From NCBI RefSeq assembly GCF_007747215.1, contig NZ_CP036273.1:7362322-7426321 (forward strand): a stretch of DNA of 64,000 bases, in the 5' to 3' direction. Each line of letters opens with the position of its first letter. Positions within the stretch are counted from its first letter, which is position 1. The position numbers were made by a program, and so were the translations under genes. The notes below the pieces were generated by a model, which was not told the origin of the DNA, searched no databases, and worked only from the letters and a program-made list of their open reading frames with translations. This DNA is from Urbifossiella limnaea. GTDB taxonomy: Bacteria > Planctomycetota > Planctomycetia > Gemmatales > Gemmataceae. Positions 10,819 through 57,912 of this stretch are shown here, in pieces.

Positions 10819-11727
10819 ATGAGCTGGCTAGGCAAGATTCTCGCCGTGCTGGTGCTGCTCCTGGCGCTGGTCTGGATGTGGTTCACCGTCACCGTGTTCG
10901 CCGCGCGGACCAACTGGAAGACGCAGGCCGAGGCGTTCAAGAAGGGCCGCGAGGAGGCCGTCGCCGCCCGCGACAGCGAGTACCGCACGTACCTCGCCGA
11001 GAAGGACGCGCTGCTGCGGCAGCTGAAGTCCGAGCAGGCGCAGGTGGCCAAGCTGACCACCGACGTGACGCAGCTGGCCGCCGACGTGGCCAAGAACGGC
11101 GAGCAGATCAAGGTGCTCAACGACGCCACCGGCAAGCGCGACGCCACCATCACCGACCTGCAGGCCAGCCTCGCCGCCGAGACCAGCCGGGCCGACACGC
11201 AGACCAAGCGCGTCAACACGCTGGAGACGGAGAAGGTGGACGACACGATCAAGCGCGAGCAGGCGGTCAAGGACAAGCAGGCGGCCGAGACGGTCGCCCG
11301 GCAGGCGACGCAGGACAAGCTGACCGCCGAGAAGAAGCTGGAAGAGGTGTCGAACCTGCTGGCCGACGCCAAGGCGCAGGGCTTCACCGGGGCCGGCGGG
11401 TCGGGCGGCGCGAGCCTGTTCGCCAACCGCCCGGTGCCGATCCGCGAGGGCACCCGCGGCACCATCGAGACGTACCGCGACGGGTCGATCCAGTTCACCC
11501 TCGGCATCGACCACGGGGTGACGGACGGGGCCACGCTCGACGTGTTCCGCACCGGCGCCGACACCCGCTACCTGGGGACGGTGGTGGTGGACCGGGCGCG
11601 GCCGCAGTCGTCGGTGGGCACGTTCCGCCCGGCCGACCCGCGGCGGCCGCTGCGGTCGCTCCGCCCCGAGGAGCTGCCGAAGGCCGGCGACCGCATCGGC
11701 CGCATCGGCAGCGGCCCCACCCCGTAA
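10819..11727 (+). CDS. Membrane-anchored coiled coil with C-terminal beta domain, operon gene 3
   Basis: This 302-residue protein has an N-terminal membrane segment (ILAVLVLLLALVWMWFTVTV, about 7-26), a long coiled coil (about 35-180), a Gly-rich hinge and a small beta domain (about 205-295; GTIETYRDGSIQFTLGIDHG ... GATLDVFRTG ... GTVVVDRARPQSSVG ... GDRIGRI). The beta domain resembles small barrel domains at the end of MreC- or FlgT-like envelope proteins, where paired glycine turns and GD.V motifs recur. The coiled-coil-plus-barrel layout resembles MreC, but the sequence is not clearly MreC. It is gene 3 of the four-gene membrane operon. Confidence 0.72.
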   Translation: MSWLGKILAVLVLLLALVWMWFTVTVFAARTNWKTQAEAFKKGREEAVAARDSEYRTYLAEKDALLRQLKSEQAQVAKLTTDVTQLAADVAKNGEQIKVLNDATGKRDATITDLQASLAAETSRADTQTKRVNTLETEKVDDTIKREQAVKDKQAAETVARQATQDKLTAEKKLEEVSNLLADAKAQGFTGAGGSGGASLFANRPVPIREGTRGTIETYRDGSIQFTLGIDHGVTDGATLDVFRTGADTRYLGTVVVDRARPQSSVGTFRPADPRRPLRSLRPEELPKAGDRIGRIGSGPTP

Positions 11728-11757
11728 CTCCGCACACCGCCGCACTGGGGACGTGAC

Positions 11758-12021
11758 ATGGCCAAGAAGTCGTCGAAGGCCCCCGAGAAGAAGCCGAAGC
11801 CGGCGCGCCGCACCGAGCCGGTGTACACGGTGATGACGTTCGTCACGTTCGTGGCGATCGCCGCCGGGTGCGCGCTGCTGTTCCTCGACTACGACGAGTA
11901 CGGCAAGACGCAGCCGACGAAGGAGACCGTGCCGGCGCTGCCGAAGCTCGGCGACGCGCCCGCCGGCGGCGGTGCGGCGCAGACCCCGAAGGGCGGCGGC
12001 GCGGCCACCGACGGGATGTAG
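11758..12021 (+). CDS. Small membrane protein, operon gene 4
   Basis: This 87-residue protein has a Lys/Pro-rich cytoplasmic start (MAKKSSKAPEKKPKPARR), one membrane segment (TFVTFVAIAAGCALLFLDY, about 28-46) and a short Gly/Ala-rich tail. It closes the operon, 30 bases after gene 3. A conserved single-pass protein beside three coiled-coil membrane proteins is likely a small accessory subunit; no family was recognised. Confidence 0.65.
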   Translation: MAKKSSKAPEKKPKPARRTEPVYTVMTFVTFVAIAAGCALLFLDYDEYGKTQPTKETVPALPKLGDAPAGGGAAQTPKGGGAATDGM

Positions 12022-12036
12022 CAATCAGTTCCGTTG

Positions 12037-12094: not shown

Positions 12095-12613
12095 TCACCA
12101 CCCATTCCGCTCGCGCACCCAGCGCACCTGCGCCGCGTGGTGCCGGCCGTGCCAGGCGTACTGCGCCAGCGCCTCGTCCAACCGCACCGTGCTGTTGCTC
12201 TCGGGGTGGAAGAACGTCCGCGCGAAGTCGGCGTCGGTCATCGTGTCGAGCAGCAGCGCCCAGCGGGCGTGGACCGCCTCCAGCAGCGCCAGCGGCGCCG
12301 CCACGTCGCCGCGGGAGTCGGGGAGCGCGGCCCAGCGCGTCTCGTCGTAGGGCTTGATCGTGGGCACGTCCTCGGTCAGCGCCAGCTTGAACCGGACGTA
12401 GCAGTTCACGTGGCTGTCGGCGACGTGGTGGACGATCTGGCGGACGGTCCAGTTGCGATATTTGGTGTCGAGCTGTTCGGCGCTGAGGCCGGCGGTCGCG
12501 GTGCGGAAGGCGGCCGGCGCGGCGACGATCTCAGCGACGAGTTCGGCGCGCCGGGCCGCCGCGAGCGGCCCCTCCGCGACGAAGGGGCCGGCGGGCCACT
12601 GGGGCGGGTGCAT
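12095..12613 (-). CDS. YfiT/DinB-like metal-dependent hydrolase family protein
   Basis: This 172-residue four-helix protein matches the YfiT/BstA branch of the DinB superfamily, which includes bacillithiol S-transferases and related metal enzymes. Visible features are RQIVHHVADSHVNCYVRFKL and IKPYDETRWAALPDS, conserved in YfiT proteins, and the C-terminal HGRHHAAQV. The three metal-binding histidines are expected in HHVADSH and HGRHH. The ATG at 12613 begins MHPPQWPAGPF; an in-frame upstream start at 12667 reads through the palindrome and is rejected. The substrate is unknown, and many planctomycetes carry this gene alone. Confidence 0.88.
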   Translation of the reverse strand: MHPPQWPAGPFVAEGPLAAARRAELVAEIVAAPAAFRTATAGLSAEQLDTKYRNWTVRQIVHHVADSHVNCYVRFKLALTEDVPTIKPYDETRWAALPDSRGDVAAPLALLEAVHARWALLLDTMTDADFARTFFHPESNSTVRLDEALAQYAWHGRHHAAQVRWVRERNGW

Positions 12614-12627
12614 CGGGGCTCCAGTTC

Positions 12628-12673
12628 CGCCGCTTGCGGCTTCGCGCTGGGCAGCGCGAAGCCGCAAGCGGCG
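12628..12673. repeat. Inverted repeat of the CCGCTTGCGGC family
   Basis: 22-bp perfect arms (12628-12649 and 12652-12673) with the same CCGCTTGCGGCTTCGCG core as the copy at 12037 lie between two minus-strand genes. Confidence 0.88.
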
Positions 12674-12680
12674 AGTCGAA

Positions 12681-14282
12681 TCAGTCCTTCTTCGGCCGCG
12701 TGAACGGCGTCATCCGCGGCAGCAGTTCCGGCAGGTTCGCGATCCGCGTCGCGGTGATCGACAGCACGCCCGCCGCCTGCGACAGGTTGCCAGTCTTGGC
12801 GTGGTCGAACGTGTCCGTCTGCGTGTGGTGCGTCAGCCGGTACTCGTCGATGTCCTGCCGGCACGCCAGGCCCGGCACGCCGGCCGGGTGGAACGCCTGG
12901 TGGTCGCTGCCGAACACGCCGCCCATGTCGATCCCCTTCCAGCCCTCGCCGGCGGCCACCGTCGTCAGCTCGCGCTCCAGAATCTCCTTCACCTTCGCCT
13001 GGCCGTGCACGCCGAACCCGTACACCTTGCCGGTGCCGGTGTCGTGGACCAGCGCGATCGACGTCTTCGGCATCTCGTCCTTGTGCCGCTCGACGTACTT
13101 CCGCGAGCCCCACAGCCCCTGCTCCTCGCCGGTGAACAGCGCGAACCGGATGGTCCGCTTCGGCGGGTAGCCCTTCTTCGCCATCGCCGCCACGACGCGG
13201 GCCGTCTCCAGCACAGAGCAGGTGCCGGTGCCGTTGTCCATCGTGCCGGTCGCCAGGTCCCACGAGTCCAGGTGCGCGCCGACGACGACGAACTCGTCCG
13301 GCTTCTCCGAGCCCTTCACCTCGCCGACGGTGTTGAAGCACGTCACCGGGCCGGGGACGAGCGTGTTGGTGATCTCGACCTCGACGCGCGTCTCGGCCGG
13401 CTCCGGGCGGTTGGCGAGCCGCCACAGCATGGCGTAGTACTCGTGGGCGACGGTGAGCCGCGGCATGATGTTCGGCGACGGCACGCGGTCGGTCCCCTTC
13501 CAGTTGCCGGACACGGCCAGCAGCCCGTGCGGCTTGCCCGAGTCTTGCAGCCGGCACGCCGCGCCCTCGGCCACGAGGAACGCCTCCACGTCGTCGGTGA
13601 ACGTGGACCGCTTCGGCTGCTCGTCCTTCTTCTCCGGCTGCGCCTCCTTCTTCTTCTCCGGCTGAACCTGCGCGAACACGGCGCCGAGGGTCGCCTTCTT
13701 CTCGTCCTTCGGCTCGGTCTTCGGCTCGACCTTCTTCGGCGGCGGGAGCGGGCCGTAGTTCAGGTCGGTCACCGGGGCCACCTTCGCCGGCTCGGCCGTC
13801 ATGATGACGGCGTTCTTGAGCTTCCCCTTGTACTTGTCGAGGTCGGCGCGGGTGGCCACCTTCAGCACCACGACGGGGCCGGTGATCTTCCCCTTGGTGC
13901 CGGGCGTCCAGCCCCACGCGGCGACGACGCAGTTCACCTTCGTGTCCGGCTCCACGACCTTGAGGCTGGCGGTGCCGCGTTCCCACCCGTAGGGCATCTC
14001 CCACGGCTCGAGCTTCACGTTCTCCAGACCGTACTTCTTCATGATCTCGGCGGTCCAGTTGTTGGCGCGCTCGAGCTGCTTGGAGCCGGTGAGCCGCGGG
14101 CCGATCACGTCCGAGAGGTGCTGCAGGTTCTTGGCGACCTCGGAGCCGGCCTTGACCTCGGCGAGCAGCGCCTGGTCGAGCTCGGCGGGGGGCATCGTTT
14201 TGACGGGGTCGGCGGTCCGCGCCGCGGCGGCGAGGCCGACGACGAGCGCGGCTGCGAGGACGGGCCTCGGGAGCGAGGGCAT
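12681..14282 (-). CDS. Exported M28-family aminopeptidase
   Basis: This 533-residue zinc peptidase has a signal peptide (LAAALVVGLAAAARTA). The M28 ligands are visible in order: VVVGAHLDSWD (His, Asp), DNGTGT (bridging Asp), GEEQGLWG (catalytic Glu pair), HDTGTG, and LTHHTQTDT (His). A protease-associated-type segment lies in the middle. Between it and the catalytic core sits a Lys/Glu/Pro-rich insertion of about 50 residues (VEPKTEPKDEKK ... EAQPEKKDEQPK), unusual for the family and probably a surface loop. The start at 14282 is set by the signal peptide. Its role would be peptide turnover in the periplasm-like compartment. Confidence 0.92.
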   Translation of the reverse strand: MPSLPRPVLAAALVVGLAAAARTADPVKTMPPAELDQALLAEVKAGSEVAKNLQHLSDVIGPRLTGSKQLERANNWTAEIMKKYGLENVKLEPWEMPYGWERGTASLKVVEPDTKVNCVVAAWGWTPGTKGKITGPVVVLKVATRADLDKYKGKLKNAVIMTAEPAKVAPVTDLNYGPLPPPKKVEPKTEPKDEKKATLGAVFAQVQPEKKKEAQPEKKDEQPKRSTFTDDVEAFLVAEGAACRLQDSGKPHGLLAVSGNWKGTDRVPSPNIMPRLTVAHEYYAMLWRLANRPEPAETRVEVEITNTLVPGPVTCFNTVGEVKGSEKPDEFVVVGAHLDSWDLATGTMDNGTGTCSVLETARVVAAMAKKGYPPKRTIRFALFTGEEQGLWGSRKYVERHKDEMPKTSIALVHDTGTGKVYGFGVHGQAKVKEILERELTTVAAGEGWKGIDMGGVFGSDHQAFHPAGVPGLACRQDIDEYRLTHHTQTDTFDHAKTGNLSQAAGVLSITATRIANLPELLPRMTPFTRPKKD

Positions 14283-14430: not shown

Positions 14431-15948
14431 TTGACCCCCGACCCCGCCGCGGACGCCGACGACGAACTCGACGACGCCGCGCCGCCGCACGCCGACCCCG
14501 ACGCCGACCTCGACCTCGACGCCGAGCCGCCGGAGCACGAACTCCCGCCCGAGACGGACCCGGCCGTCACCTACGCCGACATGAAGCTGATGCGGCCGCT
14601 GTTCGACGCCGTGTCTCGCGCCGGCTACATCCACCCCACGCCGGTGCAGGAGGCCGTCATCCCCGTGGCCATGAAGGGCCAGGACGTGATCGGCCAGGCC
14701 CAGACGGGCACCGGCAAGACGGCCGCGTTCCTGCTGCCGTTCATGAACCGGTGGCGGCCGCACAACCTGAAAGGCCCGATCGGCCTGGTGATGACGCCGA
14801 CCCGCGAGCTCGCCCTGCAGATCGCCACCGAGGCCGACAAGCTGGCGCCGAGCAAGCGGTTCCGCACCGTGGCCGTGTACGGCGGCGCCAAGATGGGCAA
14901 GCAGCTCGACGGCCTCAGCCGCGGCTGCGACCTCGTCGTCGGCACCCCCGGCCGGATGCTCGACCACCTCAGCCGCGGGTCGATGGACCTGAAGGACGTG
15001 AAGTTCGTCGTGCTCGACGAGGCCGACCGGATGCTGGACATCGGCTTCCGCCCGGACATCGAGCGCATCCTCCGCCGCTGCCCGCTCACCCGCCAGACGC
15101 TCCTCATGTCGGCGACGGTGCCCGAGCCGATCAAGAAGCTCGTCCACCGGTACATGACGAACCCGGTCCACCTCCAGATGACGCCGGAGGTGATGACCGT
15201 CGACAAGATCCGGCAGAGCTACTTCACGGTGGACAAGCACAAGAAGTTCGAGCTGCTGGTGAAGGTGGTGGAGCGGGAGCAGCCGCGGCAGGCGCTGATC
15301 TTCGTGGAGCGGAAGCGGTGGGCCGACGACCTGTACCGCGGGCTGAAGCGGGTGGTGCGCGGCGCGGCGGTGATCCACGGCGACCTGCCGCAGGGGCAGC
15401 GCGAGAAGATCATGGCGGCGTTCCGCACCGGCGAGATCAAGTTCCTCATCGCCACCGACGTGATGAGCCGCGGCATCGACGTGGAGGGGCTGTCGCACGT
15501 CATCAACTTCGACCTGCCGCAGGACATCGAGAGCTACGTCCACCGCATCGGCCGCACCGGCCGCATCGGCCGCGACGGCATCGCCATCTCGTTCTCGACG
15601 CCGGAGCAGGGCGGCCTGCTGACGGACATCGAGGTGATGATCAACCGGCTGATCGAGCAGGACGAGGTGCCGGGCGGCCCGTGGTACACGGCGGTGCGCC
15701 GCAGCGAGCGGACCGCGGACGTGACCACCGGCAACGCGGACGTGGCGCGGGCGGCGACGCAGGTGCTGCGCAACGACGACGGCTGGGGCATCGACGAGCA
15801 GGACCTGGAGGGCGGCAAGCTGGGCGTGGCCGAGGGCGAGGCGCCGCCGCGCGACCCGGACATGCCGGCGGGGCCCGCGGCCGGAGCGCCGGCGGCGAAG
15901 AAGCCGGTCTTCGGCAAGCGCGGCAAGCGCTACTCGGAGCGCCTCTAA
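14431..15948 (+). CDS. DEAD-box RNA helicase
   Basis: This 505-residue helicase shows the Q-motif region (HPTPVQEAVIP), motif I AQTGTGKT, PTRELALQ, GTPGR, DEAD, SAT, and the C-terminal ATDVMSRGIDV and HRIGRTGR motifs. A 45-residue acidic start and a Gly/Ala/Lys-rich tail flank the core. No ATG fits: the frame is open far upstream through the antisense of the peptidase. A TTG at 14431 has GGAG six bases before it, and its first residues (MTPDPAADADDELDD) begin the acidic extension, so TTG is chosen. Members remodel RNA in ribosome assembly or mRNA decay. Confidence 0.92.
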   Translation: MTPDPAADADDELDDAAPPHADPDADLDLDAEPPEHELPPETDPAVTYADMKLMRPLFDAVSRAGYIHPTPVQEAVIPVAMKGQDVIGQAQTGTGKTAAFLLPFMNRWRPHNLKGPIGLVMTPTRELALQIATEADKLAPSKRFRTVAVYGGAKMGKQLDGLSRGCDLVVGTPGRMLDHLSRGSMDLKDVKFVVLDEADRMLDIGFRPDIERILRRCPLTRQTLLMSATVPEPIKKLVHRYMTNPVHLQMTPEVMTVDKIRQSYFTVDKHKKFELLVKVVEREQPRQALIFVERKRWADDLYRGLKRVVRGAAVIHGDLPQGQREKIMAAFRTGEIKFLIATDVMSRGIDVEGLSHVINFDLPQDIESYVHRIGRTGRIGRDGIAISFSTPEQGGLLTDIEVMINRLIEQDEVPGGPWYTAVRRSERTADVTTGNADVARAATQVLRNDDGWGIDEQDLEGGKLGVAEGEAPPRDPDMPAGPAAGAPAAKKPVFGKRGKRYSERL

Positions 15949-15954
15949 GAAGGC

Positions 15955-16065
15955 ATTTTTGACGGGATGAACAGGACAAGACAGGATGGAAGATAAAGAC
16001 AAGAATTAATTTAAATTCGGTCTTTGTCTTCCATCCTGTCTTGTCCTGTTCATCCCGTCAAAAAT
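15955..16065. repeat. Long inverted repeat, 46-bp arms
   Basis: Arms 15955-16000 and 16020-16065 (core GGATGAACAGGACAAGACAG, one mismatch) flank an AT-rich 19-base loop. It lies 7 bases after the helicase stop and 12 bases before the SDR start. Confidence 0.93.
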
Positions 16066-16076
16066 TGATTTCGCTC

Positions 16077-16754
16077 ATGAAACTCATCGTCCTCACCGGC
16101 GCCACGCGCGGGCTCGGCCGCGCCCTGGTGCCGCGGTTCACCGCCGCCGGGCACACCGTCGTCGGCTGCGGCCGCAGCGCCGCCCACGTCGCCGAGCTGG
16201 CCGCCGCGTTCGGCGCGCCGCACCGCTTCGACCCACTCGACGTGACCGATTCCGCCGCCGTCGCCGCCTGGGCGGAGAGCGTGCTGAAGTCGCACGGCGC
16301 GCCCGATTTGCTGATCAACAACGCCGCGGTGATGGCGGCGCCGGCGCCGCTGTGGGAGGTGCCGGCGGCCGCGTTCGACGCCGTCATCGACGTGAACGTG
16401 AAGGGCGTGGCGAACGTGCTGCGCGGGTTCGTGCCGGCGATGGTGGCGCGCAAGTCGGGCGTGGTCGTGAACCTGTCGAGCGGGTGGGGGCGGAGCGTGT
16501 CGCCGGAGGTAGCGCCGTACTGCGCCAGCAAGTACGCGGTGGAGGGGCTGACGCTGGCGCTGGCGCAGGAGCTGCCGCGCGGCATGGCGGCGGTGCCACT
16601 GAACCCCGGCGTGATCGACACCGACATGCTGCGGCAGGCGTGGGCCGACGGCGCGTCGGCGTACCCGAAGGCGGAGAAGTGGGCCGAGCGGGCGGCGCCG
16701 TTCCTGCTGGCGCTCGGCGCGGAGGACAACGGCCGGTCGCTGAGCGTGGGGTGA
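16077..16754 (+). CDS. Short-chain dehydrogenase/reductase
   Basis: This 225-residue SDR has the classical cofactor motif TGATRGLGRAL (8-18), the NNAAV motif, the catalytic Ser in NLSSGW, and YCASK (Tyr and Lys). The substrate is not predictable. The start at 16077 (MKLIVLTGATRG) is preferred over ATG 16041, which lies in the palindrome. It stands alone between two long inverted repeats, with no operon partner. Confidence 0.92.
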   Translation: MKLIVLTGATRGLGRALVPRFTAAGHTVVGCGRSAAHVAELAAAFGAPHRFDPLDVTDSAAVAAWAESVLKSHGAPDLLINNAAVMAAPAPLWEVPAAAFDAVIDVNVKGVANVLRGFVPAMVARKSGVVVNLSSGWGRSVSPEVAPYCASKYAVEGLTLALAQELPRGMAAVPLNPGVIDTDMLRQAWADGASAYPKAEKWAERAAPFLLALGAEDNGRSLSVG

Positions 16755-48484: not shown

Positions 48485-48964
48485 ATGCGGTTCCACCTGA
48501 TCGACCGGATCGACAGCTGCGAGCCGGGCAAGGCGCTCACCGCCACCAAGCGCCTCGCCCTCGGCGAAGAATACCTGGCCGACCACTTCCCCAAGTGCCC
48601 GGTCATGCCCGGCGTGCTCATGCTCCAGGCCGTGGTCGAAGCCGCCTCGTGGCTCTGGCGCGCCACCACCGACTACCGCCACCCCGTCGTCGTGCTCCGC
48701 GACGTGAAGAGCGTCAAGTACGGCACCTTCATGCTCCCCGGCCGCACCATGAGCGTGTCGGTGGAACTCGTGAAGCACGAAGGGGATACGGCGACGTTCA
48801 AGGGCAAAGGCACCAACGACGCCGGCCTGCAGACCGTGGCCGCGCAGTTCGTGCTGCACGGCTACGCCCTCGCCAACCGCGGCCCGGCCGGGGAAGCCGC
48901 CGACGCCAAGCTGCAAGACCACTGGAAGACGCGCTGGGCTCTCCTGACTGGGGCTCTCCGATGA
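48485..48964 (+). CDS. FabZ-like hotdog protein with Gln in place of catalytic Glu
   Basis: This 159-residue protein is a FabZ/FabA-type 3-hydroxyacyl-ACP dehydratase fold. The catalytic His34 is present (DHFPKCPVMPGVLMLQA), but the acidic residue 14 positions later is Gln48, where FabZ has Glu and FabA Asp. The second hotdog protein of the operon has the complete pair, at the same positions. In aryl-polyene clusters a similar pair forms a heterodimer with one active subunit; the same is suggested here. It overlaps fabG by 4 bases. Confidence 0.85.
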   Translation: MRFHLIDRIDSCEPGKALTATKRLALGEEYLADHFPKCPVMPGVLMLQAVVEAASWLWRATTDYRHPVVVLRDVKSVKYGTFMLPGRTMSVSVELVKHEGDTATFKGKGTNDAGLQTVAAQFVLHGYALANRGPAGEAADAKLQDHWKTRWALLTGALR

Positions 48965-49725
48965 CCCTGACCGACAAAGTCGCGCTGGTGACGGGCGGGA
49001 GCCGCGGGATCGGCCGGGCGGTGGTGCAGAAACTCGCCGCCGAGGGCGCGAAAGTCGCCTTCGTCTACCGCGGCAGCCAGGCCGCTGCCGAAGAGTTGGT
49101 GAAGGAGATCACCGCCGCCGGTGGGACCGCGAAGGCCATCCAGGCCGACGTGGCCGAGCCGACCGCCGCCCGCCGGGTCGTGGACCAGGTGCTGGCGGAC
49201 TGGGGCCGGGTCGATATCCTGGTGAATAACGCCGGCGTCATCCGCGACGGGCTGTTCGTGCGGATGGAGCCCGAGAACTGGCTGGCGGTGATCGACACGA
49301 ACCTGAACGGCACGTTCTACTTCTGCCGGGCCGTCGCCGACCAGATGGCCCTGAAGCAGCGGAGCGGGCGGATCATCAACGTGTCGAGCGTCGCGGCCAG
49401 CCACGTGAACGCCGGCCAGACGAACTACGCGGCCAGCAAGGGCGCGGTGAACAGCTTCACCCGCGCCCTGGCCGTGGAACTCGGGAGCCGGAGCGTGACC
49501 GTCAACGCGGTCGCGCCCGGGTTCATCGAGACGGACATGAGCGAGGCGGTCCGCGCCAAGGGCGGGGACTTCATCGCCAAGAAGCTGGTCCCCCTGCGGC
49601 GACTCGGCAAGCCCGAGGACATCGCAGGGGTGGTGGCGTTCCTGGCCGGCCCCGCGGCCGCCTACGTCACCGGCCAGGTGCTCACCGTGGACGGCGGCCT
49701 CAGCCTGGGTGCCGTGACCGCGTGA
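48961..49725 (+). CDS. fabG: 3-oxoacyl-ACP reductase
   Basis: This 254-residue SDR reduces 3-oxoacyl-ACP with NADPH. It has TGGSRGIGRAV (11-21), NNAGVIRDG, the catalytic Ser in INVSSVA, YAASKGAV and the C-terminal YVTGQVLTVDGGLSL. The fit to FabG is close. It overlaps the first dehydratase by 4 bases and precedes the ACP by 46 bases, forming part of a complete reduction cycle in the operon. Confidence 0.94.
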   Translation: MTLTDKVALVTGGSRGIGRAVVQKLAAEGAKVAFVYRGSQAAAEELVKEITAAGGTAKAIQADVAEPTAARRVVDQVLADWGRVDILVNNAGVIRDGLFVRMEPENWLAVIDTNLNGTFYFCRAVADQMALKQRSGRIINVSSVAASHVNAGQTNYAASKGAVNSFTRALAVELGSRSVTVNAVAPGFIETDMSEAVRAKGGDFIAKKLVPLRRLGKPEDIAGVVAFLAGPAAAYVTGQVLTVDGGLSLGAVTA

Positions 49726-49771: not shown

Positions 49772-50161
49772 ATGCCGACGAAGGACGAGATCTTCGAGAA
49801 GGTCCGCACCACCCTGGTGGACGCCCTCAACGTCGACGACGACGAGGTGAAGCTCACGAGCCGGCTCCGCGCCGACCTGAACGCCGAGTCGATCGACTTC
49901 CTCGACATCGTGTTCCGGCTGGAGAAGCAGTTCAACGTGAAGATTCCGCGGGAGGAGCTCTTCCCCGAGTCGATCTTCCAGGGCGACGCCGACTACGTGG
50001 CCGACGGCAAGGTGACGGCCAAGGGGCTGGACGAGCTGGCCAAGCAGATGCCGTTCGCCGACCTGACGGAGTTCCGCAAGGACCCGCGGCTCGACAAGAT
50101 GGAAGACCTGTTCACGGTGGACCTGATCGTGAACTACCTCCAGAAGAAGCTGGGCGGCTGA
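49772..50161 (+). CDS. Acyl carrier protein, extended
   Basis: This 129-residue protein has the carrier core (EIFEKVRTTLVDALNVDDDE ... LRADLNAESIDFLDIVFRLE) with Ser40 as phosphopantetheine site, but an insertion and longer C-terminus (ESIFQGDADYVADGKVT ... DLTEFRKDPRLDKMEDLFTV DLIVNYLQ) make it about 50 residues longer than housekeeping ACP. That marks it as a dedicated carrier of this pathway. Its stop overlaps the next start by one base. Confidence 0.9.
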   Translation: MPTKDEIFEKVRTTLVDALNVDDDEVKLTSRLRADLNAESIDFLDIVFRLEKQFNVKIPREELFPESIFQGDADYVADGKVTAKGLDELAKQMPFADLTEFRKDPRLDKMEDLFTVDLIVNYLQKKLGG

Positions 50162-50652
50162 TGCGCTGGACGTGGATCGACCGGTTCACGGCGTTCGAGT
50201 CGCGGAAGGCGGCGACGGCGGTGAAGTGCCTGTCCCTGGCCGAGGACCACTTCGCCGACCACTTCCCCGGCTTCCCCGTCATGCCGGCGCCGCTCATCCT
50301 TGAAGGACTCGCCCAGACCGGCGGTATCCTCGTGGGCGAGGCCAACGGCTTCAAGGAGAACGTCGTCCTGGCCAAAATGAGCGCCAAGTTCGCCCGCGAG
50401 GCGTATCCCGGCGAGCAGCTCACCTACACCGCCACCCTCGTGGACCTGGGGGCGACTGGCGGGCGGGTCAGCGGCACGGTCAAGAGCGGCGACGTCCTGG
50501 TGGCCGAGGCCGACATCCTGTTCGCCCACGTCGGCCCCGACCAGCTGCCGCCCGGCGTTACCGACTCGAAGTTTGTGTTCACGGGTGAGCTGCAGACGCT
50601 CCTGAAGACGGCCGAGGCCGTGGCCGTAACCCCCGCCACAACAGCGGGTTAA
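50161..50652 (+). CDS. FabZ-like dehydratase with complete His/Glu pair
   Basis: This 163-residue hotdog protein has His34 and Glu48 (DHFPGFPVMPAPLILEGLAQ) in FabZ spacing, so it should be active. It resembles the first hotdog gene in length and start (both begin MR.. with DR.T/D.), and probably forms a heterodimer with it. It is translated immediately after the ACP (one-base overlap). Confidence 0.9.
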   Translation: MRWTWIDRFTAFESRKAATAVKCLSLAEDHFADHFPGFPVMPAPLILEGLAQTGGILVGEANGFKENVVLAKMSAKFAREAYPGEQLTYTATLVDLGATGGRVSGTVKSGDVLVAEADILFAHVGPDQLPPGVTDSKFVFTGELQTLLKTAEAVAVTPATTAG

Positions 50653-50882: not shown

Positions 50883-52169
50883 ATGGTAGAGACCCCCCGC
50901 CGCCGGGCCGTCGTAACGGGGCTCGGGGTGATTTCCGCGATCGGCAGCACGCCCGCCGCATTCTGGGCCGCGCTCGAGGCCGGCACGCCCGGCGTCGGTC
51001 GGATTCGCGCCTTCGACCCCACCCCCCTCCCCTGCCAGCTCGGCGGCGAGGTGCCCGACTTCAACGCCAAGGCCGTTGTCGAGAAGGCCTACCGCAAGAC
51101 GCTGAACGCGATGTCGCGGCCGGTGCAGATGGGGCTGGTGGTGTCGCAGTTCGCCATGCAGGACGCCGGGCTCGCCAAGGGGACCGTGGCGCCGGAGCGG
51201 ATCGGCATCTCGTTCGCGTCGGTTATGGGGGCCACCGATATCGACGACCTGGCCGGGGCGAGCAAGCGCTCGTCCGTGGGCGCCCGGCAGGCGGTGGACA
51301 TGGCGGTGTGGGGCGAGAAGGGGCTCCCCGAAGTGCCGCCGATGTGGATGCTGCGGTACCTGCCGAACATGCCGGCGTGCCACGTCACGATCGTGTTCGA
51401 CATGCAGGGGCCGAGCAACACCATCATCCCGAACGACGCCGCCGGGGTGATGGCGCTGGGCGAGGCGCTCCGCATCCTCCGCCGCGGCGCCGCCGACGTG
51501 ATGTTCGTCGGCGGCAGCGAGGCGAAGGTGAACCCGCTGAGCATGTCGCGGTTCAACAGCTTCTACCCGCTGACGCGCCGCAACGAGCTCGGCGGCGCGG
51601 CCGTGCGGCCGTTCGACGAGGCGGCCAGCGGCTCGGTGCTCGGCGAGGGCGGCGCCGCCTTCCCGCTGGAGGAGTTGGAGCACGCGAAGACGCGCGGCGC
51701 GAACATCCTCGCGGAAGTGGTCGGGTTCGCGGCGGGCGTCGACCGGCCGCTGGCGGGGCCGGGGTTGGCGCGGGTGATCCGAACCGCGCTGGCCGAGGCC
51801 GGCATCCAACCGGCCGACGTGGACCACGTGAACGCGCACGGCGTCGGCGTGCCGGCGCTGGACCGGTTCGAGGCTAACGGCATCGGCGCGGTGTTCGGCA
51901 AGGACGTGCCGGTGTTCGCCCCGCTGAGCCGCTTCGGCAACATGGGCGCCGCGTCCGGCGCGGCCGAGCTGGCGTGCAGCCTGCTGGCGCTGAAGCACGG
52001 CAGGCTGCCGGGCACGCTGAACCACGCCGCCCCGTACCCGGGCTGCCCCATTACGGTGCACACGGGGTCGCCGCGGCCGGTGACGAAACCCTACGCGGTG
52101 AAGGTGAGCGCCACCGACCTGGGCCAGTGCGCCGTGGTGGTGGTGAAGCGTTGGGACGGGGGGGCATGA
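50883..52169 (+). CDS. Ketosynthase-like chain-length factor (KS-beta)
   Basis: This 428-residue protein has the FabF-type thiolase fold. At the active-site position the sequence is GPSNTIIPNDAAGVMALGEA, so Asp185 replaces the Cys. The first His is kept (VNAHGVG, His319), but the second is Asn353 (RFGNMG). It cannot condense by itself and resembles the chain-length factors/KS-beta of type II polyketide and aryl-polyene systems, where Cys is replaced. The ATG at 50883 is preferred; the frame is open for 63 codons upstream. Coupled (ATGA) to the intact KS. Confidence 0.9.
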   Translation: MVETPRRRAVVTGLGVISAIGSTPAAFWAALEAGTPGVGRIRAFDPTPLPCQLGGEVPDFNAKAVVEKAYRKTLNAMSRPVQMGLVVSQFAMQDAGLAKGTVAPERIGISFASVMGATDIDDLAGASKRSSVGARQAVDMAVWGEKGLPEVPPMWMLRYLPNMPACHVTIVFDMQGPSNTIIPNDAAGVMALGEALRILRRGAADVMFVGGSEAKVNPLSMSRFNSFYPLTRRNELGGAAVRPFDEAASGSVLGEGGAAFPLEELEHAKTRGANILAEVVGFAAGVDRPLAGPGLARVIRTALAEAGIQPADVDHVNAHGVGVPALDRFEANGIGAVFGKDVPVFAPLSRFGNMGAASGAAELACSLLALKHGRLPGTLNHAAPYPGCPITVHTGSPRPVTKPYAVKVSATDLGQCAVVVVKRWDGGA

Positions 52170-53458
52170 TGCGTCGTCGGGTCGTCATCACCGGGATGGG
52201 CGTGATCACCCCGCTGGGGCACACCGTCGCCGAGCTGTTCGCCTCCCAGCTGGAGGGGCGCACGGCCGTGGGTCCGCTCACCCGGTTCGACGCCCGCACC
52301 ATGCCGACCACGTTCGCGTCCGAGGTGAAGGGCTTCGAGCTCGACAAGTACGTCGACGACCGCGGCCGCTACGCCCACTGCGGCGTCAACACGCAGTTCG
52401 CAATCGGCGCCACGAAAGACGCCCTCGCCGACGCCGGCCTCCTCGACGAAGGCACCGGCGACCGCAGCCGCATCGGCGTCTACCTCGGCTCGGGAGAAGG
52501 TGCGGAGGACTTTCCCGCGCTCATCAACAGCATCGCGCTGGCCACGGGTCCGAGCGGCAAGGCCGACCCGGCGACGTTCCAGCGGGAAATCCTGCAGGTG
52601 CTCAGCCGCGACCGCGAGGCCGAGGTGGAGATGCACACCACCTGCGGCCACCTGGCGCACCTGTTCGCGCTGGACGGCCCCAACTTCGCCTGCCAGACGG
52701 CGTGCGCCGCCAGCTCGCAGGCCATCGGCGAAGCCGCGGAACTCATCCGCGCCGGCGACGCCGACGTGATCGCCGCCGGCGGCTCGCACTCGATGCTCCA
52801 CCCGCTCGGCATCACCGGGTTCAACCGCCTCACGGCGCTGTCGCAGCGGAACGAGTCGCCGCGGACCGCGAGCCGGCCGTTCGACCTGACCCGCGACGGC
52901 TTCGTCATCGGCGAGGGCGGCGGCATCGTCGTGCTGGAGGAGTTGGAGCACGCCAGGAAGCGCGGCGCCACGATCTACGCCGAGGTGACCGGCTACGGCA
53001 CCACCGCCGACGCCTACCGCATGACCGACCCGCACCCGCAGGGGAAGGGCGCCATCCGCGCGATGGCCGACGCCCTGACCGACGCGAAGCTGAAGCCGAC
53101 GGACATCGGCTACATCAACGCCCACGGCACGAGCACGCAGGCGAACGACTCGGCGGAGACAGCGGCGATCAAGGCCGTGTTCGGCGAGTACGCGTACCAG
53201 TTGCCGGTGTCGAGCAGCAAGAGCATGTTGGGCCACCTGATCGCCGCGGCGGGGGTGGTGGAACTGGTGATCTCGGTCATGGCGCTGCGGAAGGGCGTGC
53301 TGCCGCCGACGATCAACCTGGAGACGCCGGACCCCGAGTGCGACCTGGATTACATCCCGAACGTGGCCCGCGAGAAGCGCGTGGACCACGTGCTGAGCAA
53401 CAGCTTCGGCTTCGGCGGGCAGAACATCGCGCTGGTGGTCAGCCGGTTTCGGGACTGA
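52166..53458 (+). CDS. Beta-ketoacyl-ACP synthase (KS-alpha)
   Basis: This 430-residue FabF-type enzyme has the complete Cys-His-His triad: Cys180 (CQTACAASSQ), His320 (NAHGTSTQAND) and His357 (SMLGHLIAAAG). It would extend acyl chains with malonyl-ACP, paired with the preceding KS-beta. The start overlaps the CLF stop by 4 bases with a G7 run before it. It ends the type II operon core; a 30-bp inverted repeat follows. Confidence 0.94.
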   Translation: MMRRRVVITGMGVITPLGHTVAELFASQLEGRTAVGPLTRFDARTMPTTFASEVKGFELDKYVDDRGRYAHCGVNTQFAIGATKDALADAGLLDEGTGDRSRIGVYLGSGEGAEDFPALINSIALATGPSGKADPATFQREILQVLSRDREAEVEMHTTCGHLAHLFALDGPNFACQTACAASSQAIGEAAELIRAGDADVIAAGGSHSMLHPLGITGFNRLTALSQRNESPRTASRPFDLTRDGFVIGEGGGIVVLEELEHARKRGATIYAEVTGYGTTADAYRMTDPHPQGKGAIRAMADALTDAKLKPTDIGYINAHGTSTQANDSAETAAIKAVFGEYAYQLPVSSSKSMLGHLIAAAGVVELVISVMALRKGVLPPTINLETPDPECDLDYIPNVAREKRVDHVLSNSFGFGGQNIALVVSRFRD

Positions 53459-53463
53459 TGATT

Positions 53464-53546
53464 GATGATTGGTGATTTGTGATTGATGAATGATGTGGCA
53501 CCGTTCCTGTGTCCGGCATTCATCAATCGTCAATCACCAATCATCA
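53464..53546. repeat. Inverted repeat, 30-bp arms
   Basis: Arms 53464-53493 and 53517-53546 (TGATGATTGGTGATT core, about 3 mismatches) flank a 23-base loop. The units are low-complexity and AT-rich, unlike the surrounding DNA. Confidence 0.85.
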
Positions 53547-53604
53547 ACGTGGAGCAGGAGGCTCCCGCGAAGTGACAGCAAGTTAAGCACCGGGAGAAGC
53601 CAAG

Positions 53605-54609
53605 GTGGTCTTTTGGTTGTGGGTCACGCTCGCGGTCGTCGCCACCCCGCCCGTCGCGGTCGGGCTGGGGCTGGCCATGCTGTACCTGTACCTGCGCTGG
53701 AAGTACGTCCCGCTCCTCGTCCGCATCTTCCAGGAGAAGCCGCTCTTCATCGTGCCGAAGGGCCAACCCTCCGACGCCGCCGAGCCGGTGGCGTTCCCCG
53801 CCGCCGACGGGCTCACCCTCCGCGGCTGCTACGTCCGCACCCCGGCGCCGACCCGCAAGGGCGTCATCCTGTTCGGCCTCGAGTTCGGCTCCGACCGGTG
53901 GGCGTGTCGGCAGTACTGCGAGCAACTGGTCGCCGCCGGGTACGACGTGTTCACCTACGAGCCGCGGAACCAGGGCGACAGCGACAAGGACGCCGCCTAC
54001 GAGCCGCTCCAGTGGGTGACCGATAAGGACACCGCCGACCTGTCCGCGGCCCTGAAGTACCTCCGCGCCCGACCCGACGCCGACCCCGCCGGCATCGGCC
54101 TGTTCGGCATCAGCAAGGGCGGCAGCACCGGGTTCGTGGCCGCCGCCGGCGACCGCGGCATCCGGTGCGTCGTCACCGACGGGGCGTACGCGACGTACAC
54201 GACGCTCGTGCCGTACATGCAGAAGTTCGTCAAGATTTACAGCAGCCGCAGCAACTTGCAAAAGGCGCTGCCGAACTGGTTCTACGGGCTGCTGGGCCTG
54301 TCCGGGGTGCGGCGGGTGGGGCGGAACCGCGGGGTGACGTACCCGAGCGTCGAGAAGGCGGTGGGGCGGATGCGGCAGCCGCTGCTGATGATCCACGGCG
54401 AGGGCGACACGTACATCAAGCCGGACATGGCGCGGGCGCTGTTCGAGCGGGCGAAGGGCGAGAAGGAGCTGTGGGTGGTGCCGAAGGCGAAGCACAACCA
54501 GGCGCTGCACGTCGCCGGCGACGAGTACCACCGCCGCGTGGTCGAGTTCTTCGACCGGCACCTCGCGCGCGTCGACGCGGAGCCGACCGTACCGGCCGGG
54601 GCGGACTGA
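53605..54609 (+). CDS. Membrane-anchored alpha/beta hydrolase
   Basis: This 334-residue protein starts with a membrane segment (LWVTLAVVATPPVAVGLGLA, about 4-23) and an alpha/beta hydrolase domain: GVILFGLEFGSDRWACRQYC, FTYEPRNQGDSD, the nucleophile GISKGGS, and the C-terminal Asp and His in LLMIHGEGDTYIKPD and AKHNQAL. It uses a GTG start at 53605 with GGGAG eight bases before it. It follows the KS operon and could release or transfer its acyl product, which is inference. Confidence 0.88.
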   Translation: MVFWLWVTLAVVATPPVAVGLGLAMLYLYLRWKYVPLLVRIFQEKPLFIVPKGQPSDAAEPVAFPAADGLTLRGCYVRTPAPTRKGVILFGLEFGSDRWACRQYCEQLVAAGYDVFTYEPRNQGDSDKDAAYEPLQWVTDKDTADLSAALKYLRARPDADPAGIGLFGISKGGSTGFVAAAGDRGIRCVVTDGAYATYTTLVPYMQKFVKIYSSRSNLQKALPNWFYGLLGLSGVRRVGRNRGVTYPSVEKAVGRMRQPLLMIHGEGDTYIKPDMARALFERAKGEKELWVVPKAKHNQALHVAGDEYHRRVVEFFDRHLARVDAEPTVPAGAD

Positions 54610-54617
54610 CGCCGCGG

Positions 54618-54708
54618 GAATGACCAATTTCCAATGACCCACCAATGACCAAGAAAGACGTCGCTGGGTTTCCTTGGTCATTGGTGGGTCATTGGTCATT
54701 GGTCATTC
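54618..54708. repeat. Inverted repeat, 36-bp arms
   Basis: Arms 54618-54653 and 54673-54708 (CCAATGACCCACCAATGACC core, two mismatches) consist of short ATTGGTCATTGG-like units; nine bases after the hydrolase stop and before the GH3 gene. Confidence 0.88.
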
Positions 54709-54721
54709 GGCGGAAATCTCC

Positions 54722-56413
54722 ATGTCGCTGAAGCGCTTCCTGCTCGTCCGCCTCGGCCGCCTCCTCACCTACCCCGTCCGCCGCAAGCTGCGCCACTTCG
54801 AGACCGCCTGCCACGACCCGGAAGCCGTGCAGACGGCGCTGCTGTTCCACATCCTCCGCAAGCAGGCCGGCACCGGCTTCGGCCGCGACCACGGCTTCGC
54901 CGAAATCCGCACCGTCGCCGACTACCGCCGCAGCGTGCCGATCGCGCCGTACGAGCGCGTCGCCCCGTACATCGAGCGCGTTCAGAAGGGCGAGCTGAAC
55001 GCGCTGCTCGCCGACCGCGCCGTGCGCCTGTTCGCGCTGACAAGCGGCACCACCGCCAGCCGCAAGCTCATCCCGGTGACCGACGACTACCTCGCGGCGT
55101 ACCGGCGCGGGTGGAACATGTGGGGCGTGCGGATGTACCGCGACCACCGCGGCCGCCGCATCGCCATGCGGCCGATCATCCAACTCGGCGGCGACCCGGA
55201 GGAGTACCGCACCCCGGCCGGCATCCCGTGCGGCAACCTCAGCGGCTACACCGCGATGGTGCAGCGCCGCCTGATCCGCCGCATGTACGCGGTGCCGTAC
55301 CAGGCCGGCAAGATCAAGGACGCCACCGCCCGCTACTACGTCGCCCTGCGGTTCGCCCTCGGCCGCGACGTGTCGCAGCACGCCGCCGCCAACCCCAGCA
55401 CGCTCGTGCAACTCGCCCGCACCCTCGACGCCGAGAAGGACCACCTGCTGCGGGATTTGCAGAACGGCACCCTCCGCAGTGACATCGACCTGTCACCGGA
55501 GATTCGCGCCGAACTGACGCGCGGGTTGAAGCCGAACCCCGTCCGCGCCCGCGAGCTCGCCGCCGTCGCCGCGAAGATGGGCCGGCTGTACCCGATGGAC
55601 GTGTGGCCCACCGAAGGCACGATCATCAACACGTGGACCGGCGGCAGCATGGGGCCGTACCTGCGGCAGCTGCCGCGCTACTACGGCGAGCCGCCGGTGC
55701 GCGACCTGGGGCTGCTGGCCAGCGAGGGCCGCATGACGATCCCGTTCGCCAACCACACGGCGAGCGGCGTCCTCGACATCTGGTCGCACTACTTCGAGTT
55801 CGTGCCGGAAGCCGAGATCGACTCGCCGCAGCCGACGGTGCTCGGCGCCCACGAGCTGCTCCTCGGCCGCAGCTACTACATCCTGCCGACGACGCTGTAC
55901 GGCCTGTATCGCTACCACATCTCGGACCTGGTCCGCGTCACCGGCTTCTACGGCCAGACGCCCGAGGTCGAGTTCCTGGGGAAGGGCCACCGCTTCGCCA
56001 ACCTGACGGGCGAGAAGCTGAGCGAGTACCACGTCACGCGGGCGGTGGACGCCGCGGCGGCACGGGTGCCCCAGCCGCTGACGGCGTACACCCTGGCCCC
56101 GGTGTGGGACGACGTGCGGCCGTACTACGCGCTGTTCCTGGAGGAGCCGGACGCGGGCGCGGCGCTGCCGGCGTTCCTGGCGGAACTCGACCGCGCACTC
56201 GGCGAGGAGAACGTGGAGTACGCGTCGAAGCGGGAGGGGAACCGGCTCGGCCCGGTGCGGGCGGCGCTGCTGCCGGCGGGGGCGTGGGCGGCGTGGGACC
56301 GCGCCCGGCTGGCGAGTACCGGCGGCTCGGCGGAGCAGTACAAGCACCCGTGCCTGATCGGCGACCTGTCCTTCCGCGCGTCGATGCCGGTGACGCGCGA
56401 GGTGGGGGCGTGA
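54722..56413 (+). CDS. GH3-family acyl-adenylate protein
   Basis: This 563-residue protein belongs to the GH3 superfamily of acyl-adenylate-forming amido synthetases, best known from plant hormone conjugation but common in planctomycetes. Features are the P-loop-like LFALTSGTTASRKLIPVTDD, the mid motifs YPMDVWPTEGTIINTWTGGS and YYILPTTLYGLYRYHISDLV and LTGEKLSEYHV near the C-terminus. It would activate a carboxylic acid and transfer it to an amine. Its position after KS operon and hydrolase suggests action on the acyl product. Start at 54722 is after the repeat. Confidence 0.9.
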   Translation: MSLKRFLLVRLGRLLTYPVRRKLRHFETACHDPEAVQTALLFHILRKQAGTGFGRDHGFAEIRTVADYRRSVPIAPYERVAPYIERVQKGELNALLADRAVRLFALTSGTTASRKLIPVTDDYLAAYRRGWNMWGVRMYRDHRGRRIAMRPIIQLGGDPEEYRTPAGIPCGNLSGYTAMVQRRLIRRMYAVPYQAGKIKDATARYYVALRFALGRDVSQHAAANPSTLVQLARTLDAEKDHLLRDLQNGTLRSDIDLSPEIRAELTRGLKPNPVRARELAAVAAKMGRLYPMDVWPTEGTIINTWTGGSMGPYLRQLPRYYGEPPVRDLGLLASEGRMTIPFANHTASGVLDIWSHYFEFVPEAEIDSPQPTVLGAHELLLGRSYYILPTTLYGLYRYHISDLVRVTGFYGQTPEVEFLGKGHRFANLTGEKLSEYHVTRAVDAAAARVPQPLTAYTLAPVWDDVRPYYALFLEEPDAGAALPAFLAELDRALGEENVEYASKREGNRLGPVRAALLPAGAWAAWDRARLASTGGSAEQYKHPCLIGDLSFRASMPVTREVGA

Positions 56414-56538
56414 CGACGGCCGTCGGCATCCGACAGCCCGGCCAGGGCCGGGTCGGCGACATTGCCGCTTGACGCCGGCCCGTCCGAATGCGACATTTCC
56501 AGTACCCGCCGGTCTGCCCTTCCCGCCCCGGAGCCCGC

Positions 56539-57912
56539 ATGTTCCGCCTCGACCTCGGCCGCTCCGGCCCGTACTGCGACGGCCGCACCCGCCGCGACTT
56601 CCTCCAACTCGGCGTCGCCGGCATGGCGTCGGTCGGCCTCCCCGCGCTGATGAAGGCGAAGGCCCAGCCGTCGCTGTCCGACCGCAAGAACACGTCGGTC
56701 GTTCTCATCTGGCTGGACGGCGGCCCCGGCCACATGGACATGTACGACATGAAGCCCGACGCCCCGGAGGAGTACCGCGGCCTCTGGCGCCCGATCCGCA
56801 CCCGGGTGCCCGGCTTCGACGTCACCGAGCTCTACCCGAAGCAGGCGAAGATCACCGACAAGTTCTCCGTGGTGCGCAGCCTGCACCACGACACCGGCGA
56901 CCACTTCGCCGGCGGCCACCGGATGCTCACGGCGAAGGACATGGGCGTCAGCGGCGCCAACACGCCGGGCAAGTTCCCCGGCATCGGCTCGATCGTCAGC
57001 CGCGAACTCGGGCCGCGCGTACCCGGCATGCCGGCCTACGTCGGGGCGCCGCACGCCGCGAGCATCGGGCTGGCCCCGGGCTACTTCGGCGGCAACTTCC
57101 TCGGCACGCACCACGACCCGTTCCTGACCGGCGACCCGAGCCCGGCCAACTACCAGGTCCGCAACCTCAACCTCGCCGCCGGCCTCACCGTCGAGAAGCT
57201 CGACAGCCGCCGCGACCTGCTAGCCCACTTCGACACCGCGCAGCGCAGCCTGGACCGCAACGCGACGGCGCAGGCGATGGACCGCTTCAACCGCGAGGCG
57301 CTCGAGTTCGTGATGGGGCCGACGGCGCGGGCGGCGTTCAACATCGGTCGCGAGCCGGTCGGCCTCCGCGACCGCTACGGCCGCAACGGCCTCGGCCAGA
57401 GCTGCCTCCTGGCGCGCCGACTCGTCGAGGCGGGTTCGACGTTCGTGACCGTCCACTCCGGCGGCTGGGACCACCACTGGGACTTGAAGGCGAGCTACGA
57501 ACGGATGCTGCCGCAGGTGGACGCCGCGGTGGCGACGCTGTTCGAGGACCTGGACGACCGCGGGCTGCTGGACACGACGCTGGTGGTGCTGTGCGGCGAG
57601 TTCGGGCGGACGCCGAAGATGAACGACGGCGGCAACGGCGGCCCGCCGCGCAGCCAGGGGACGCCCGGCCGCGACCACTGGGGCAACGCCTTCTTCTGCC
57701 TCATGGGCGGCGGCGGCGTGAAGGGCGGCCAGCTGGTCGGCTCGACCGACCGGCTCGGTCAGCGGCCGCACACCCGGGCGGTGACGCCGTCGAACATCCA
57801 CGCCACGATCTATCAGGTGTTAGGGATCGACCCGAAGCTGATGCTGCTGGACCCGAGCGGCCGGCCGGTGAACGTGCTCGACGACCCCGAGCCGATCCAC
57901 GAGCTGTTCTGA
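56539..57912 (+). CDS. Second Tat-exported DUF1501 protein
   Basis: This 457-residue protein has a Tat signal (TRRDFLQLGVAGMASVGLPA, about 17-36) and the DUF1501 core (VVLIWLDGGPGHMDMYDMKP, RSLHHDTGDHFAGGHRML, LLARRLVEAGSTFVTVHSGG, VLCGEFGRTPKMND, GRDHWGNAFFCLMGGGGVKG). It is a paralogue of the 40563 protein but not its nearest copy. The ATG at 56539 follows GGAG. No DUF1549/1553 partner is next to it. Confidence 0.93.
   Translation: MFRLDLGRSGPYCDGRTRRDFLQLGVAGMASVGLPALMKAKAQPSLSDRKNTSVVLIWLDGGPGHMDMYDMKPDAPEEYRGLWRPIRTRVPGFDVTELYPKQAKITDKFSVVRSLHHDTGDHFAGGHRMLTAKDMGVSGANTPGKFPGIGSIVSRELGPRVPGMPAYVGAPHAASIGLAPGYFGGNFLGTHHDPFLTGDPSPANYQVRNLNLAAGLTVEKLDSRRDLLAHFDTAQRSLDRNATAQAMDRFNREALEFVMGPTARAAFNIGREPVGLRDRYGRNGLGQSCLLARRLVEAGSTFVTVHSGGWDHHWDLKASYERMLPQVDAAVATLFEDLDDRGLLDTTLVVLCGEFGRTPKMNDGGNGGPPRSQGTPGRDHWGNAFFCLMGGGGVKGGQLVGSTDRLGQRPHTRAVTPSNIHATIYQVLGIDPKLMLLDPSGRPVNVLDDPEPIHELF

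Follow-up and report, generated by a model that had tools for sequence, protein, structure and literature searches.

The 64,000-nucleotide stretch analysed here (the window, G000:C1:7362322-7426321) belongs to the 7.8 Mb single-contig genome of the planctomycete Urbifossiella limnaea and carries eight genes on the plus strand, in which the genes for a dehydratase (DH1), a ketoreductase (KR), an acyl carrier protein (ACP), a second dehydratase (DH2), a chain-length factor (CLF, or KS-beta), and a ketosynthase (KS, or KS-alpha) precede those for an alpha/beta hydrolase and a GH3 family protein. We propose, with about an even chance of being right, that the eight genes form one functional unit, a second GH3 pathway of this genome that amidates an acyl chain built by the KS/CLF system and yields a lipoamide. 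The idea that the hydrolase and GH3 release and amidate the product of the operon came from the original prediction, and both open reading frames (ORFs) were found where it had placed them, behind the ketosynthase operon. The GH3 ORF had been drawn from a TTG at 54674, but translation more probably begins at the ATG at 54722. Conservation of the pair and of its linkage in relatives indicates that neither is due to chance.

GH3 protein and comparison with the ornithine lipid pathway

The GH3 protein (54722-56413, 563 aa), a predicted acyl-acid amido synthetase of a KS/CLF-linked subfamily, matched the N-terminal, middle, and C-terminal Pfam domains of GH3 with 236.9, 73.3, and 65.8 bits, respectively (cut-off 23.6). 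It contains the nucleotide motifs TSGTTASRK, ASEGRM, and GLYRYHISD, and residues G109, K115, S334, E335, G394, R397, and D402 were invariant in all 21 aligned rows. By sequence, the closest relative with a solved structure was plant JAR1, which aligned over nearly the full length (E 2.4e-31). When the AlphaFold2 model (pLDDT 88) was compared with solved structures, the top 30 Foldseek rows and the top 12 VIA-align rows (Z 38.8-40.1) were all plant GH3 enzymes, with 4epl aligned over 522 residues at Z 40.1 and a root mean square deviation of 4.6. Accordingly, the protein has the full-length fold (Z ~40) and the three nucleotide-binding motifs in common with the plant GH3 amido synthetases JAR1/GH3.11, GH3.5, GH3.6, and GH3.12, and its GLYRYHISD resembles the plant GLYRYRLGD. 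In contrast, its identity to the plant enzymes is ~22%, its gene lies in a bacterial lipid operon, and it probably acts on a lipid chain in place of the hormones used by the plant enzymes. The suggestion that this protein activates an acid and forms an amide is thus supported by the fold, the motifs, and the characterised paralogue OlsH (PMC12493201), and amide formation is likely, as judged from the model and by analogy.

The structural ranking also bears on a different role, that of a loading or salvage ligase, in which the GH3 protein would activate a free acid and pass it to the ACP of the operon or to CoA as a primer, with no amide formed. The ligases BT_0428 and PaaK came next in the ranking, and none of the eight genes was recognised by Pfam and NCBIfam as coding for a dedicated starter enzyme. 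However, the best matches were amido synthetases and the ligases lay far below them (BT_0428 and PaaK-type at Z of at most 22.0, i.e., 22 vs 40), and to our knowledge no thioester-forming GH3 has been described. We consider this role improbable.

OlsH of Singulisphaera acidiphila (Sinac_1599), described in 2025, is a planctomycete GH3 that joins a free fatty acid to ornithine with ATP to give N-acylornithine, and OlsI is an alpha/beta hydrolase that adds the second acyl chain (PMC12493201). The window resembles this pathway in that a planctomycete GH3 is encoded with an alpha/beta hydrolase, and ATP-dependent activation of the acid is expected in both. However, curated model scores led us to reject the identification of the window pair as OlsH and OlsI. 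The window GH3 reached 123.5 bits on the OlsH model NF052613 (cut-off 620), and the hydrolase was not among the matches to the OlsI model NF052614 at E <= 0.001. The genome has two GH3-family matches, and the second passed the OlsH model with 696.1 bits; the adjoining OlsI scored 420.1 bits (cut-off 385). This second GH3 lies in an OlsI-OlsG-OlsH-like locus (L089, G000:C1:5502001-5518000) with a methyltransferase domain between OlsI and OlsH, as OlsG would be, and ornithine lipid synthesis is therefore predicted in this genome. The window GH3, by comparison, is of a different subfamily (22-31% identity in local alignments), and the OlsH-type and window-type proteins formed separate groups in a tree (19 rows, SH-aLRT 100). 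Its neighbours are not OlsG and OlsI but the attached KS/CLF genes, a hydrolase absent from the OlsI model matches, and a DUF1501 gene, and the nucleophile elbow reads GISKGG in the window hydrolase vs ASSLGG in the OlsI of the same genome.

S. acidiphila has both GH3 types, namely OlsH, according to PMC12493201, and a window-type protein (47% identity; 83.2 bits on the OlsH model) at locus L184 (9923-11629), where matches to DH1, ACP, DH2, CLF, the hydrolase, and a second ketosynthase match were found, with no match to KR in that locus. Under one culture condition, with acetate and ornithine labelling, the olsH deletion mutant was devoid of trimethylornithine lipid (PMC12493201), which means that, in this culture, the loss of OlsH was not made good by the window-type GH3. 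Another compound labelled by ornithine, close to the origin, was still present in the mutant, and the authors suggested that it is citrulline (PMC12493201). In our estimation, the window pair is very unlikely to supply ornithine lipids by a redundant second route: one of its proteins belongs to the GH3 family and the other GH3 of the genome is OlsH by the curated model, but the window GH3 itself fails that model, the operon is without OlsG and OlsI, and the mutant lost its lipid despite the window-type operon at L184 (one culture condition, PMC12493201).

Hydrolase and linkage in relatives

The hydrolase (53605-54609, GTG start, 334 aa) is predicted to be membrane-anchored and matched Pfam alpha/beta-hydrolase families with 42 bits at best. 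GISKGG occupies residues 168-173, and the triad was complete, as first predicted: Ser170, Asp268, and His297 were invariant in all 81 rows of an alignment that holds the window's own sequence twice and whose rows are not independent. Residues 2-43 formed a single predicted helix in the structure model (pLDDT 90), and an N-terminal hydrophobic stretch was present in 80 of the 81 rows. The charge was more positive after this stretch than before it in 71 of these 80 rows, in a lenient test with rows cut at the window's start and a short or empty N-terminal flank, and by the positive-inside rule this pattern predicts a cytosolic catalytic domain. In structural comparisons, esterases, the thioesterase DcsB, and monoglyceride lipases were similarly good matches to the model, and the VIA list would also be compatible with an acyltransferase.

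Full-length relatives of the window GH3 were found in 54 of 59 genomes, the window's own included, giving 58 loci (four genomes gave two) that were compared with the eight window proteins. A second set of 80 loci from named genomes comprised the best 80 of at least 520 confirmed matches, its organisms partly shared with the first set. Full linkage required that KS, CLF, and hydrolase all lie no more than 8 kb upstream of GH3 and in its orientation, and was scored where the upstream sequence spans 6.5 kb or more; hydrolase linkage required the hydrolase within 2.5 kb of GH3 and was scored where 2 kb or more is present upstream. Among the relatives' loci, 25 of 39 were fully linked (24 of 38 when the window's locus is left out) and 41 of 54 had the hydrolase beside GH3; for the named loci, the counts were 46 of 59 and 62 of 73, respectively. 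The original prediction depended on the hydrolase and GH3 staying with the KS/CLF operon in other planctomycetes, which these counts bear out; an absence of linkage in relatives, the outcome that would have spoken against it, did not occur.

Of 149 genomes sampled across the phylum, 22 gave matches at E <= 1e-80, and 17 of these 22 were out-of-class. All 17 out-of-class loci were fetched, and 14 remained eligible after setting aside L190, L193, and L195, which have at most 2 kb upstream. One of the 14, L189, has the gene order DH1-KR-ACP-DH2-CLF-KS-GH3, in which GH3 directly follows KS and no hydrolase intervenes; an alpha/beta hydrolase of another kind is encoded ~4.4 kb downstream (15255-16136). 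L189 took the basal position in the window-type GH3 group (64 rows, SH-aLRT 99) in a quick, midpoint-rooted tree in which it forms a long branch with deviant composition.

These loci matter for a scheme in which the order of the two reactions is reversed, i.e., GH3 would make an N-acyl amino acid and the hydrolase, as an O-acyltransferase, would add the KS/CLF-built chain from the ACP, giving an acyloxyacyl amino lipid in the manner of OlsH/OlsI with other substrates. The sole characterised bacterial GH3-hydrolase pair that we found works in this way (PMC12493201), the membrane anchor and the predicted cytosolic active site suit such a reaction, and hydrolase and GH3 were kept together in 5 of the 14 relatives' loci that are without the full set (L042, L045, L056, L061, and L066). 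On the other hand, the window hydrolase is absent from the matches to the OlsI model, its elbow differs from that of OlsI, and L189 has no hydrolase in this position. This scheme therefore seems to us rather unlikely.

Several other arrangements were observed. Five planctomycete genomes have a second, divergent window-type GH3 (38-42% identity; L076, L081, L085, L088, and L207) that forms its own subclade, and no match to the KS operon was found in the fetched stretches of these five loci. In a same-genus genome, an insertion of ~2 kb separates CLF from KS (L035:4032-5931) and comprises a gene of the 3-demethylubiquinone-9 3-methyltransferase family and an ORF without a Pfam match. At L208 (G050:C1:496001-516000), the operon has the order DH1-KR-ACP-DH2-KS; its hydrolase is distant (26% identity), no CLF adjoins KS, and the GH3 gene is elsewhere in that genome. 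In the GH3-less genomes G045, G047, G052, and G056, the best CLF-like gene was without a surrounding operon in the single locus examined for each (L210-L213).

Chain-building operon

The first gene of the operon, DH1 (48485-48964, 159 aa), encodes a FabZ/FabA-like hot-dog dehydratase (Pfam FabA, 57.8 bits; NCBIfam FabZ models matched below their cut-offs). Its active-site His was present in all 56 rows; at the position that we take to be the catalytic Glu of FabZ, 28 of the 56 rows have Gln, 27 have Glu, and one has His. The FabG-like KR (48961-49725, 254 aa), whose start overlaps the DH1 stop, was scanned as a longer ORF and matched Pfam adh_short_C2 (228.3 bits) and adh_short (211.7 bits); it remained below the cut-off of TIGR01830 (289.8 vs 297.75 bits) and passed that of the FabG subfamily model NF009466 (260.3 vs 222 bits). 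The ACP (49772-50161, 129 aa) has a C-terminal extension, a Pfam PP-binding match at residues 9-64 (36.5 bits), and a Ser40 that was invariant in 60 of 60 rows. DH2 (50161-50652, 163 aa; Pfam FabA, 45.2 bits) is FabZ-like with both His and Glu present, with His34 in 59 and Glu48 in all of 61 rows. We abandoned the idea that DH1 and DH2 are half-active dehydratases that complement each other, given that DH2 is complete in the window and that the Glu position of DH1 is a mixture of Gln, Glu, and His.

CLF (50883-52169, 428 aa) has the ketosynthase fold with Pfam ketoacyl-synt domains, and the position of the catalytic Cys is Asp in 46 and Glu in 16 of 62 rows. In KS (52169-53458, 429 aa), Cys179, His319, and His356 were found in 69 of 69 rows, so that a complete Cys-His-His KS adjoins a Cys-less CLF, as in type II KS/CLF systems. 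The DH1/KR, ACP/DH2, and CLF/KS genes overlap by one to four bases. The actinorhodin system (1TQY) and 6KXD, which we take to be the ishigamide system, share this arrangement and the accompanying KR, DH, and ACP genes, whereas the window KS and CLF score highest to FabF and CLF proteins of this type have Asp or Glu in place of Cys. The same Cys to Asp/Glu change was noted in 2009 by Rattray et al. in the FabF paralogues RB3714 and RB4527 of Rhodopirellula baltica (PMC2649909); that article, in the part available, does not treat the two as CLF partners, and GH3 is absent from its main text.

KS scored 488.6 bits on the FabF model TIGR03150, just below the cut-off of 493.75 for a housekeeping FabF, and both KS and CLF were nearest to FabF among solved structures. 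No aryl-polyene ketosynthase label appeared in the best 60 of 130 (KS) or the best 60 of 119 (CLF) structure rows, whose labels are generic; an aryl-polyene assignment is thus unsupported by the nearest solved structures, in a comparison made by structure rows and not by a sequence tree. The short-chain dehydrogenase/reductase of the operon matches adh_short_C2, a broad family described as enoyl-ACP reductase, and NCBIfam ranks it as a FabG ketoreductase. Pfam and NCBIfam pointed to no dedicated enoyl reductase in the eight-gene set, in a search that covered neither the rest of the genome nor a trans-acting enzyme. The product may therefore be a polyene or a saturated chain, though KS and CLF are nearest to FabF.

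At 5.369 Mb, the genome has a different FabF, above the model cut-off with 610.3 bits and adjacent to a gene for a carrier protein, and a FabA/FabZ-type gene is found at 5.566 Mb. Given these separate genes, we read the window operon as accessory, and primary fatty acid synthesis was set aside as its full explanation because of the second above-cut-off FabF beside a carrier-protein gene. The view that the operon serves ordinary fatty acid synthesis, with GH3 and the hydrolase as functionally unrelated neighbours, can point to the small distance of KS from the FabF cut-off and to the loss of linkage in part of the loci. Against it stand that other FabF, a KS/CLF pair, which is not known as part of ordinary type II fatty acid synthesis, and a linkage that is kept across families and also occurs in one out-of-class genome. 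We regard this view as highly improbable.

Two further regions of the genome carry related domains. G000:C1:4917392-4930528 contains large multidomain genes with three FabA-type domains, a ketosynthase, and tandem carrier domains, which we read as polyunsaturated fatty acid synthase/polyketide synthase-like, and G000:C1:7521596-7531622 contains several carrier domains and a ketosynthase.

Proposed pathway and flanking features

In the proposed pathway, the accessory type II system of DH1, KR, ACP, DH2, CLF, and KS would build a special chain on its own ACP, apart from ordinary fatty acid synthesis, as its gene content suggests. The membrane-anchored hydrolase would then free the chain from the ACP as a free acid at the inner face of the membrane. 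GH3 would convert this acid with ATP to an acyl-AMP and join it to an amine, forming the lipoamide, a reaction type expected from the fold and the characterised paralogue. The amine would most likely be an amino acid other than ornithine. In some lineages, more speculatively, a lipoprotein-like DUF1571 protein may help to carry the product towards the outer membrane.

Several observations weigh against this proposal. The full KS-CLF-hydrolase set was absent upstream of GH3 in 14 of the 39 relatives' loci and 13 of the 59 named loci. Besides the five of these 14 that keep the hydrolase only, one had a ketosynthase match only (L037) and eight had neither, five of the eight being relatives of 40-42% identity (L076, L079, L081, L083, and L088). 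The operon is sited away from GH3 in several such genomes (L215, L217, L218, L219, and L226): for the GH3 loci L084 (G055), L038 (G008), and L044 (G014) it is on a different contig (L215, L219, and L226, respectively), and at L218 (G006) the operon and hydrolase are ~120 kb away. On the GH3 tree, the KS-linkage label required 13 changes compared with a mean of 31.8 in shuffles, which indicates a strong but repeatedly broken linkage. Outside the class, the operon was found with GH3 in 1 of the 14 eligible loci, and the gene order of this locus, L189, means that this hydrolase is not indispensable. As the hydrolase fold matches several classes alike, it does not distinguish a thioesterase from an acyltransferase, and the leniency of the charge test tempers the predicted cytosolic placement. 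Within the window, two hairpins separate the KS, hydrolase, and GH3 genes. The DUF1571 gene adjoins GH3 in a minority of loci, and its Lol/RseB-like signal is weak. Finally, the support consists of genes, domains, residues, linkage, and the separation from OlsH/OlsI, from which substrate, product, and activity are predicted.

The hairpins lie in the spacers between KS and the hydrolase (53459-53604, 146 nt; -62.5 kcal/mol, z -6.2) and between the hydrolase and GH3 (54610-54721, 112 nt; -72.2 kcal/mol, z -10.9). Both spacers contain long near-perfect inverted repeats that fold strongly, and two short patterns derived from them (13 and 21 bases, with at most one and three mismatches, respectively) matched these two sites only within the window. 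Conserved regulatory hairpins were rejected, since few spacers reached z <= -4: counting those of the window, 3 of 40 between KS and the hydrolase and 8 of 46 between the hydrolase and GH3, with the relatives' z-scores calculated from mononucleotide shuffles. Downstream of GH3 comes a DUF1501 gene (56488-57912), which is placed outside the conserved set because any match to it occurred in 8 of 58 loci only and at variable positions.

A DUF1571 gene follows GH3 in 8 of 47 relatives' and 14 of 61 named eligible loci, and also in L189, as counted with a profile built from 13 of the counted loci and L189 itself. In S. acidiphila, its open frame starts 157 bases past the GH3 match, and no DUF1571 gene was found near the operon in the window genome. 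A Cys within a lipobox-like stretch is invariant among the 12 members that were aligned. A Lol-like fold was not adopted, with an RseB match at E 0.047 and a LolA_like match in 1 of the 12 members. In L073, GH3 is followed by DUF1571, response regulator, and GroES (Cpn10) genes (10921-12033, 12291-12707, and 12730-13029), and several further loci have ORFs from these BLAST clusters downstream of GH3.

In the openly licensed PubMed Central literature, we found no paper on a KS/CLF-GH3 operon. Little has been established about what GH3 proteins do in bacteria, and the single characterised example that we found comes from the same phylum (PMC12493201). S. acidiphila offers a test system in which the operon is present and an olsH knockout exists (PMC12493201). 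Tentatively, and at somewhat less than an even chance, we suggest that the operon represents a second GH3-dependent amino-lipid pathway with its own KS/CLF system, common to Gemmatales and Isosphaerales and older than the class, which would produce undescribed lipoamides of the membrane or outer membrane. A second widely conserved GH3 subfamily with its own chain-building operon would thus predict a class of lipids not yet assigned in planctomycetes.

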